This document shows positions 3,890 through 6,675 of a stretch of 64,000 bases of DNA, one piece after another. Position numbers and translations under genes: made by a program. Origin of the DNA: Rhizohabitans arisaemae (GTDB lineage: Bacteria; Actinomycetota; Actinomycetes; Streptosporangiales; Streptosporangiaceae); contig NZ_BLRH01000060.1 of NCBI RefSeq assembly GCF_025996515.1, positions 1,054,001 to 1,118,000 on the forward strand, read 5' to 3'. The notes beneath the pieces were generated by a model. The model was not told the DNA's origin. It made no database searches and saw only the letters and a list, made by a program, of their open reading frames with translations. How positions within the stretch are numbered: position 1 is the first letter of the stretch; each line of letters starts with the position of its first letter.

Positions 3890-4588
3890 GTGCCCGAAGT
3901 AGCCGCCGGGGCGATTCCCAGCCCAAACATCTGGAACACGCCCCACATCTACGAGATCGAGAACCGCGCCGTCGACCCCGACGCCCGAATCTACGACGCC
4001 ATGGCCGCGATCCGGCCCACGGAGGGCGCGACCGTCCTCGACATCGGCTGCGGCACCGGCTACCACCTGCCGTTCTATTCCCGTACGGCGACACGCGTGA
4101 TCGGCGTGGAGCCGCACGCCGGACTCGCCTCCCTCGCCGAACGGCGCTGCGCCGGACTCCCCAACGTCGCGATACGCGTGGGCACCGCCCAGTCCGTCCC
4201 CGTACCCGACGGCTCCGTCGACGTGGCCTGCGCCCGATGGGCCTACTTCTTCGGCCCCGGCTGCGAACCCGGCCTCGCCGAGCTCGACCGGGTGGTCCGC
4301 CGCGGCGGAGCCGCCTTCGTCCTCGACGTCGACGCCACCCGCGGCCCGTACGGGCGCTGGTTCCGCCGCTGGCTCACCAGCTACGACCCGGAACGGGTGG
4401 CACGGTTCTGGACACGGAAAGGCTGGAGCCGGACCGAACTGACCATCCGCTGGGCCTTCCCCACCCGCAAAGACCTGGAAGCCGTCCTCCGCATCGAATT
4501 CCCCGCCAAAATCGCCGAAGGCTTCCTCGCCGAGGTGAACGGCACCGAGTTTGACTACGCCGCGAACCTCTGGTGGCGCAGGTTTTAG
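3890..4588 (+). CDS. SAM-dependent methyltransferase (UbiE-like)
   Basis: A 232-residue class I methyltransferase with motif [15 protein letters not shown] near residue 48, a following VIGVEPHAG, and the post-I/II segment [20 protein letters not shown]. The GTG start at 3890 is the only start in frame close to a plausible N-terminus, and the product opens with an Asn/Ile-rich [14 protein letters not shown] segment seen in actinobacterial homologues of unknown function. It is divergent from the TIM-barrel operon, with about 90 bp of shared promoter space. It ends at a TAG directly before the hairpin-rich intergenic region. Confidence 0.82.
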
Positions 4589-4691
4589 GTAGACCCCTGG
4601 GTCCTATGGTCTCCATAGGCATGGTGTGGGTGACAACAACGGACATGGGGACCGTGTTAAGCGAGGTCGCCGTCAAGAACCAGTATTTTTG

Positions 4692-4804
4692 GGCCGAGCT
4701 CCGCTCGGCCGGCTCGAAACGCCGGTAACCCGCGTCTTCCCTCCTAGTCGTCGCCGCCGGCGCGACGACGCCGTCGTCAGTCCAGACGCGGGGGCGTTTC
4801 GAGC
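4692..4804 (+). ncRNA. Candidate structured RNA (compound stem-loop)
   Basis: A simple hairpin (GGCCGAGC/GCTCGGCC, 4692-4710) is followed by a nested fold. GCTCGAAACG (4712-4721) pairs with CGTTTCGAGC (4795-4804), CCCGCGTC (4729-4736) with GACGCGGG (4785-4792), and GTCGTCGC (4747-4754) with GCGACGAC (4762-4769). All three helices are perfect and coaxially nested, which is hard to get by chance even at high GC. The strand is assigned only by analogy with radA. A HEARO/omega-RNA-like element is one possibility because a GTGA lies just upstream at 4630-4633, but I cannot match a covariance model by eye. Confidence 0.4.
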
Positions 4805-4937
4805 GCGCACGTGCCCGACCCGTAAGAGAGAGTCACGCTAGGCCATAGCCGGTAAGACCCGAGATTTCCTACAGGGGTTCCGCATGCTGGTTGTAAGTAT
4901 GGCTGGACGCTAGGCGCCCAAGGCGCTACATCCGCAC

Positions 4938-5033
4938 TTCTCGCGCCGCGTACTTTGCGGCGCGAGAATGCGCGCGAAGGTCCGTGCCGCGCGGTCTTTG
5001 CGCGGCACGGACCGTCGCGGTCAATGTTGAAAA
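4938..5033. repeat. Two adjacent perfect hairpins plus first CGCGGTC tail
   Basis: TTCTCGCGCCGC (4938-4949) pairs with GCGGCGCGAGAA (4957-4968) around a 7-nt loop, and GGTCCGTGCCGCGC (4979-4992) pairs with GCGCGGCACGGACC (5000-5013) around another 7-nt loop. Both loops end in CTTT or TCTTT. The tail CGCGGTCAATGTTGAAAA occupies 5016-5033. The stems could act as terminators for a plus-strand RNA, but there is no long T-run. Confidence 0.55.
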
Positions 5034-5203
5034 CACTGGCTTGTGAGAGAGGTTTCCCTTAAGACGGTGGGCACGTCCGTGGTCGCAACCGGGGCCACAA
5101 CCTACCTGCCTGGCCCGGTAAGCACGGTCGAAGGAAAACCCGAAGGTGCGGACCGCGTTAAGTGCGGGCGGGTTTACAAGAACAGTGCCGTCGACATGAG
5201 CGC

Positions 5204-5263
5204 GCGGCGGTTCGCGCCGGACGCCCTTCGTCCGACGCGAACCGCCGCGGTCGGTGTTGAAAA
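5204..5263. repeat. Long hairpin plus second CGCGGTC tail
   Basis: GCGGCGGTTCGCG (5204-5216) pairs perfectly with CGCGAACCGCCGC (5236-5248), with an inner CGGACG/CGTCCG helix (5218-5223 with 5229-5234). The tail CGCGGTCGGTGTTGAAAA (5246-5263) repeats the one at 5016-5033 with two changes. It ends 33 bp before the radA start, so it lies in the radA promoter or leader. Confidence 0.55.
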
Positions 5264-5295
5264 ATCTGTCGGCCTCAGGCCGTACGCTGCGGGGC

Positions 5296-6675
5296 ATGGC
5301 GAAGGCGAGCACGTCGTTTCGGTGCGCGGAGTGTGGGTGGCAGACCACCAAATGGGTGGGTCGCTGCGGGGAATGCCAGTCCTGGAGCACGATGGAGGAG
5401 GTGGGTGCCCCCAGCGCGGTCACGCGCGCCGTGAGCGCCGGCCGGGTCACCGCTCCGGCACTGCCCATCGGCGAGGTGCCGGTGGACGAGGCGACCGCGT
5501 TGCCGACCGGCATGGACGAGCTGGACCGGGTGCTGGGCGGGGGCCTGGTCCCGGGTGCGGTGCTGCTGCTCGCGGGCGAGCCGGGGGTCGGCAAGTCGAC
5601 GCTGCTGCTGGAGATGGCGGCGCTCCGCGCCGACCGCGCCAAGGTGCTCTATGTGACCGGTGAGGAGTCCGCCGCCCAGGTCCGGCTCCGGGCCGACCGG
5701 GTCGGGGCGCTCGCCCCGCACCTCTACCTCGCCGCCGAGACCGAGTTGGGCGCGCTCGTCGCGCATGTGGAGGCGGTCCGGCCCGAGCTGCTCATCGTGG
5801 ACTCGGTGCAGACCATCGCGTCGACCGGGGTGACGGGGACGCCCGGCGGCATGACCCAGGTCCGCGACGTGGCGAGCAACCTGATCAAGGTGGCCAAGGA
5901 TCGGAACCTCGCGACCGTCCTCGTCGGCCACGTCACCAAGGACGGCTCCATCGCCGGGCCCCGCGCGCTGGAACACCTGGTCGACGTGGTTCTCTACTTC
6001 GAAGGTGAACGCCACTCCCGGCTCCGCATGATCCGTGCGGTGAAGAACCGGTACGGGCCCACCGACGAGATCGGCTGTTTCGACCTGTCCGACTCGGGGC
6101 TCGCCGGGCTGCCGGACCCCAGCGGCCTGTTTCTCACCCACCGGGTCGAACCGGCCGCGGGGACCTGCGTCACGGTGACGCTGGAGGGCCGGCGTCCGCT
6201 CGTCGCCGAGGTGCAGGCGCTGGTCGTCCCCACCCACCCCGAGGCCAATCCCCGCCGTACCACCGCGGGGCTGGAGAACGCCCGGATGACCCTGGTGCTC
6301 GCGGCCTTGCAGCGGCACGGCAAGGTGCGGCTGAACCAGCACGACGTCTACGCGGGCACGGTCGGCGGGGTCCGGCTGACCGAACCCTCGGTGGATCTCG
6401 CGGTCGCCCTCGCGGTGGCCGGTTCGTCGAGCGGCATGCCGCTGCCTTCGGGTTTCATCGCGCTCGGCGAGGTGGGGCTGGCCGGCGAGATCCGCAGGGT
6501 GCAGGGGGTACGGCGCAGGCTGGGTGAGGCGGCTCGGCTTGGTTTCCGGCACGCGGTGGTGCCGACCGACTCGATCACCGCGGACTCGCTCGCCCCGAAC
6601 TCAGGAGTCCCCGAGGGGATGACGGTCACCGAGACGAGCGACCTGGCCTCGGCGATCCGCGCCGCGTTCGGGTAA
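5296..6675 (+). CDS. radA: DNA repair protein RadA
   Basis: RadA (Sms) processes branched recombination intermediates together with RecA. The 459-residue protein has all expected parts. A four-Cys zinc finger comes first (CAECGWQ...CGECQSW, residues 9-27). A RecA-like ATPase follows, with Walker A GEPGVGKST and an LIVDSVQT Walker B. The RadA-specific KNRYG motif is present, and a C-terminal Lon-protease-like domain closes the protein. The ATG at 5296 gives the usual MAKASTSFRCAECG N-terminus; a longer reading from 5254 would begin in a hairpin repeat. The gene is followed after about 100 bp by disA, the normal actinobacterial order. Confidence 0.97.
   Translation: MAKASTSFRCAECGWQTTKWVGRCGECQSWSTMEEVGAPSAVTRAVSAGRVTAPALPIGEVPVDEATALPTGMDELDRVLGGGLVPGAVLLLAGEPGVGKSTLLLEMAALRADRAKVLYVTGEESAAQVRLRADRVGALAPHLYLAAETELGALVAHVEAVRPELLIVDSVQTIASTGVTGTPGGMTQVRDVASNLIKVAKDRNLATVLVGHVTKDGSIAGPRALEHLVDVVLYFEGERHSRLRMIRAVKNRYGPTDEIGCFDLSDSGLAGLPDPSGLFLTHRVEPAAGTCVTVTLEGRRPLVAEVQALVVPTHPEANPRRTTAGLENARMTLVLAALQRHGKVRLNQHDVYAGTVGGVRLTEPSVDLAVALAVAGSSSGMPLPSGFIALGEVGLAGEIRRVQGVRRRLGEAARLGFRHAVVPTDSITADSLAPNSGVPEGMTVTETSDLASAIRAAFG

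Follow-up and report, generated by a model that had tools for sequence, protein, structure and literature searches.

A composite, structured repeat with covarying stems dispersed in the genome of Rhizohabitans arisaemae

The 64,000-nt stretch of DNA analysed here (the window) contains, between a methyltransferase gene (3890-4588, Methyltransf_11) and radA (5296-6675, with disA next), a composite element spanning approximately 4601-5264, with ends placed by similarity to other copies and by the 54-bp gap that separates the corresponding genes in a relative. The element is present in many copies in one genome, carries long inverted repeats, is missing from the equivalent site in that relative, and has stems kept by compensatory change. 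We lean towards interpreting it as a non-autonomous, dispersed, structured mobile repeat acting on host mRNA in the manner of ERIC, NEMIS and REP sequences. Such an element would multiply at the DNA level through a trans-acting enzyme and would persist where it does least harm, at 3' ends between convergent genes in its own genome and in operon spacers in related genera. Read-through from neighbouring genes would transcribe it, and the fold formed in the transcript could affect host mRNA, either as a barrier at the 3' end or between cistrons or as a processing site; such roles have been described for NEMIS and suggested for REPs.

Architecture, insertion site and genomic copies

The left end of the element is formed by an inverted repeat some 85 nt long (4606-4690), defined by alignment with the repeats found at either end of other copies and terminating in AGTATTTTT. 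The adjoining AC module includes a 19-nt terminal hairpin of the form GGCCGAG...CTCGGCC (4692-4710) and a nested stem (4712-4804) with homologues in other genera, composed of outer arms (4712-4723/4793-4804), inner arms (4729-4737/4784-4792) and the conserved strands TTCCCTC (4737-4743) and TCAGTCC (4777-4783). A loosely conserved linker (4805-4888) leads to the E module on the plus strand (4889-5038), delineated from 41 aligned copies, covariation and an excess of plus-strand wobble pairs, and comprising a conserved lead, hairpin 1 (4933-4972), hairpin 2 (4973-5019) and an A-rich tail. The element is completed by a right inverted repeat (5036-5114), the reverse of the left one, and by a second, truncated unit (5115-5264) that combines an inverted repeat with a hairpin-2-like stem (5203-5249) and gives a weak full-length match to the E covariance model, R1. 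The left and right repeats align, such inverted ends being shown for the composite element of this genome only.

Within the window copy, a 69-nt direct repeat (4970-5038/5200-5268) is 72% identical. Inverted repeats join 5203-5223 to 5229-5249 and 4973-4992 to 5000-5019 (95% each), as well as 4938-4949 to 4957-4968 and, around the nested fold, 4712-4723 to 4793-4804 (100% each). The fold of 4626-5045 has a z-score of -6.45, with 0/100 dinucleotide shuffles as good, and that of 5043-5275 a z-score of -3.03, with 1/200 as good. The hairpins, nested fold and duplicated units for which the initial annotation had singled out this spacer are all present, with copies of its GGACCGyGTTAAGyG...CAAGAACnAGT unit beginning near 4649 and 5151, and the extent it gave (4604-5263) is here corrected to the span stated above. 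GTGA, which it noted ahead of two of the units, does not mark a unit boundary: the occurrence at about 4629 lies inside the longer inverted repeat, and that at 5043 is not kept in other copies.

The methyltransferase-radA gap measures 707 bp here and 54 bp, without the element, in the relative (genome G004, locus L158), where the methyltransferase is an ortholog (143/232 residues identical). The spacer element is therefore an insertion, a claim underlain by this single empty site, the only one sought. A promoter-like block on the plus strand (5265-5298), ending in the radA ATG, lies outside the element and marks its right edge; locus L140 shares 28 of its 34 bases, as counted by eye. Because this block is downstream of the element, the element is not a radA leader, and the proposal of a radA-disA regulatory leader is abandoned on this ground and on that of the element-free gene pair in the relative. 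In the radA start region of the window, of L140 and of other radA loci, the conserved promoter-like block stops about 7 bases before the ATG, a position that would fit a leaderless mRNA. At another locus (L138), the left end of the element contains the stop codon of the adjacent gene.

A search of the spacer against its own 8.3-Mb genome returned at least 72 matches (40 of 99 candidates scored). Element copies are non-coding and dispersed over 43 intergenic gaps, a count that takes in pieces, two of the gaps holding a repeat fragment alone. The AC and E modules are co-oriented in 13 clusters, one of them with a partial AC, and many other copies consist of E and one repeat. Model R1, applied to the same genome at an E-value of 0.01, identified at least 68 matches (150 of 7821 candidates scored). 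Full-length matches number 41, each with an E-value of 1.1e-20 or lower; the remainder are weak, partial or on the opposite strand.

The 43 gaps comprise 27 convergent, 13 same-direction and 3 divergent ones, against 11, 66 and 35, respectively, among 112 element-free background gaps of 30-2500 bp, a background drawn from the element neighbourhoods and the window and not a random sample. This corresponds to a convergent excess (27/43 vs 11/112, Fisher p 6e-11) and a divergent deficit (3/43 vs 35/112, p 0.0015), with orientations taken from the predictions of a codon-based gene finder for which the window was the training sequence. A promoter and terminator scan gave results at chance level (1 terminator-like site found, 0.9 expected). 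Elsewhere in this genome (C54, L122 1170-2540), a 1.6-kb gap without predicted genes contains chance open reading frames with repeated peptide stretches, which suggests another repeat family.

Covariation, strand preference and distribution of the modules

Examination of covariation, as proposed in the initial annotation, revealed strong compensatory change in both modules. Among the 41 E sequences, counted after removal of a duplicate row (L036), 98.2% of cells are paired and changes on both sides occur at 20/36 pairs; double-change cells number 97, against 24.4 in shuffles (0/500), and slid controls collapse. Wobble cells read on the plus strand amount to 43 G-U and 12 A-C (8/4 in hairpin 1, 35/8 in hairpin 2), or 25 vs 3 when counted by sequence and 17 vs 11, not significant, by distinct pair. 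The E wobble pairs thus indicate a preference for a plus-strand fold. In other genomes, R1 produced no E match extending beyond hairpin 2; hairpin-2-only matches occurred in G133 among 341 family genomes and in G133 and G428 among 394 class genomes, two sets that overlap and include the source genome; remote E relatives may be missed, since 7-9 candidates were scored per genome.

A covariance model of the AC module (R2) matched 56 of the 341 family genomes, the source genome included, defining a searchable structured repeat family, without an Rfam 15 match, in 21 of the 68 genera of one bacterial family. The class sample gave matches in 5 of its 394 genomes, all belonging to this same family. 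Copies are often several per genome and sometimes tandem, their numbers being lower bounds because 10 candidates were scored per genome. Genome G336 contains four AC units head to tail at a spacing of about 114 bp, in arrays located at L183 1501-1955 and L237 1214-1669; three of the L183 units score alike. Comparison of the AC and E stretch of the window with 59 other genomes yielded weak matches in six. Two of these matches, both in G027, are true AC homologues, alike in hairpin, loop strands and nested stem; among the rest, which were rejected, that at L053 has the hairpin alone in common and the others are unrelated by eye. The L053 locus itself (about 1490-1650, G013) holds two close copies of another GC-rich unit that starts with a GGCCGAG..CTCGGCC-type hairpin and is devoid of the AC loop strands. 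A pattern scan of named genomes returned 49 stretches in scattered taxa, dismissed as chance from the listing alone. AC copies have in common a short tail, CATAAACACAG, after the terminal hairpin, with no similarity beyond it. At four loci (L205, L210, L213 and L231), an extra stem arm and hairpin seem, by eye, to come after this tail, as if the end had been duplicated.

The AC alignment (A5) comprises 86 matches from 77 sources, with 20 further loci and L194 left out. Double changes are present at 15/15 pairs of the hairpin and inner stem, and at 6/6 pairs of the 19-nt terminal hairpin. Over 26 pairs, 278 double-change cells were counted, against 71.1 in shuffles (0/500), in an alignment fitted to its own model. 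Part of the innermost helix is uncertain because one pair is mostly unpaired (58/80 cells). The outer stem, which is left out of the R2 structure owing to its misalignment in an alignment designated A3, was checked separately: its sequence differs while complementarity is kept, with 10-14 pairs in 60/85 sequences and fewer in 25. Single-sequence folds converge on one shape in the window, L170, L177 and L188 (z-scores of -5.3 to -9.3) and are looser in L183 (-3.5). The loop strands are near-invariant, with TTCCCTC in 81/85 sequences and TCAGTCC in 83/85, and this loop is predicted to be, probably, a protein-binding site. On a bolder and distinctly doubtful interpretation, AC would represent a small mobile nucleic acid of a new class, with a working core of its own, in which the near-invariant loop strands CTTCCCTCGTC and CTCAGTCCAG lie between freely changing helices; it would have spread through the bacterial family, reaching operons for ribosomal proteins, and in one lineage it would have combined with long inverted repeats and another structured module to form a composite. 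Such a core might resemble small ribozymes, or RNAs that bind proteins, in its architecture.

Counted as G-U/A-C on the plus sense of the window, the wobble pairs of the AC hairpin (1/15) and inner stem (2/23) point to the reverse strand, with p 1e-8 for cells and p 0.0015 by genus (3/18). The bias is opposite in the innermost helices (20/4) and the outer stem (10/3; 62 sequences), and over all 26 pairs, collapsed by genus, the ratio is 18/22 (p 0.64); AC copies of the source genome give 7/14. Given this helix-by-helix disagreement, a reverse-strand RNA fold for AC does not hold across the whole structure, and AC may fold either as RNA or as single-stranded DNA. A wobble-frequency control consisting of three tRNAs was put to no use.

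These counts bear on a possible, if somewhat unlikely, alternative in which the stems work as DNA and RNA plays no part, either as single-stranded hairpins or cruciforms that are substrates for a transposase or recombinase, or as palindromes kept alike by replication template switching. The long inverted repeats and tandem arrays are in keeping with it, as are the absence of a net strand bias in AC (18 vs 22) and the fact that G-U and A-C cells together are few in the AC hairpin and inner stem (41/1259) and yet double changes affect every pair. The clear one-strand wobble excess of E argues in the other direction, though the same excess would be expected if one strand folded as single-stranded DNA, and so do the lack of a Y1 transposase in the source genome and its weak association with AC in the family, detailed below. 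The contradictory AC wobble likewise weighs against the RNA-level part of the mobile-repeat interpretation that we favour. Among the three proposals of the initial annotation (an undescribed ncRNA, a HEARO-like element and a radA-disA leader), the first is the best: homologues, strong covariation and the lack of a credible Rfam match agree with it, but the spacer belongs to a dispersed repeat family and entered its site as DNA. Taken by module, an RNA fold is indicated for E only, through its plus-strand wobble excess.

For 78 AC copies in other genomes, neighbouring genes were oriented relative to the reverse-AC strand: both are co-directional in 36 cases and both opposite in 16, with 17 convergent, 6 divergent and 3 with one side unknown, counts that take in tandem and orthologous copies and derive from a gene finder trained on another genome. 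Pfam assignments place AC between the L23 and L2 genes (rplW-rplB) in L177 and between the L11 and L1 genes (rplK-rplA) in L185, and next to genes for ATP synthase epsilon, adenylosuccinate synthetase, UvrC, alanine dehydrogenase, S18 and TatC. Judged by protein start, the L2 site is occupied in five genomes, representing two genera (L170, L177, L179, L182 and L232). This recurrent position ahead of L2, the surplus of co-directional neighbours (36 of 78 vs 16) and the near-invariant loop strands are consistent with a cis-acting regulatory RNA of the riboswitch or leader type, spread by duplication. We consider this improbable, given that the downstream genes (L2, L1 and the six adjoining genes just named) have no common pathway and that 17 of the 78 copies lie between convergent genes, the type of gap that dominates in the source genome. 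The conserved loop and the presence of AC in ribosomal, ATP synthase and repair operons raise the questions of what moves the element, what binds the loop and what effect it has on essential operons.

Searches for known families and for a mover

No Rfam 15 family reached its gathering score in the window, in a check that the initial annotation had also put forward, and a relaxed search yielded sub-gathering matches only, the best being P17 at 26.4 bits against 45. At loci L052, L053 and L057, Rfam gave no match at an E-value of 1, and at L172 chance-level matches at 10. HEARO (RF02033) was rejected on the window searches, with no match even at an E-value of 10; the verdict rests on these because the search over the source genome, which also gave no match, was silent in control genomes too. 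The element is intergenic, structured and multi-copy, as a HEARO or omega-RNA relic that had lost its nuclease gene would be. Given the lack of a covariance-model match and the position of GTGA away from the boundary, such an origin is barely credible.

Y1 transposase (PF01797) was not detected in the source genome, with 5/14 controls positive, and within the family it occurs in 29/56 AC-positive and 111/285 AC-negative genomes (p 0.077). It was rejected as the mover on its absence from the source genome and on this unclear association. A search for an autonomous partner found the repeat consensus outside element copies as two fragments only (40 of 69 candidates scored), and no mover was recognized by eye among the open reading frames listed for seven regions located at element gaps or at the fragments. 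Target duplications were not obvious by eye in 15 short-form copies, whose ends are not sharp. These results, together with terminator-like sites at chance level, weigh against the mobile-repeat interpretation. Neither the window element nor the AC element matched plasmids, phages or viral contigs. Among the papers listed by the literature searches, none named such an element, and a word search found no mention in the available text of PMC11109978.

Comparison with known structured repeats

HEARO and omega-RNA (RF02033) resemble the element in being structured, intergenic and multi-copy, and differ from it at the level of the covariance model. REP, BIME and REPIN sequences are likewise palindromic repeats in convergent or same-direction gene gaps; PMC3733652 reports that most REPs lie in gaps of these two kinds and treats G-T pairs within their stems as indicating transcription, and PMC3116915 is a further reference. 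In contrast to these, the element described here is much longer, and its genome lacks a Y1 transposase, which across the family is not clearly associated with AC. The element comes closest to structured MITE-like repeats, including ERIC/IRU/RU, Correia/NEMIS and CIR, for which PMC2229807 reports stable stem-loops in transcripts and RNase III cleavage of NEMIS transcripts. As far as these sources extend, such repeats share with the present element a non-coding, dispersed and intergenic nature and stable stem-loops. The element differs from them in that no target duplication was seen, and in having two structured modules, a length of up to about 660 bp and an internal loop conserved over many genera.
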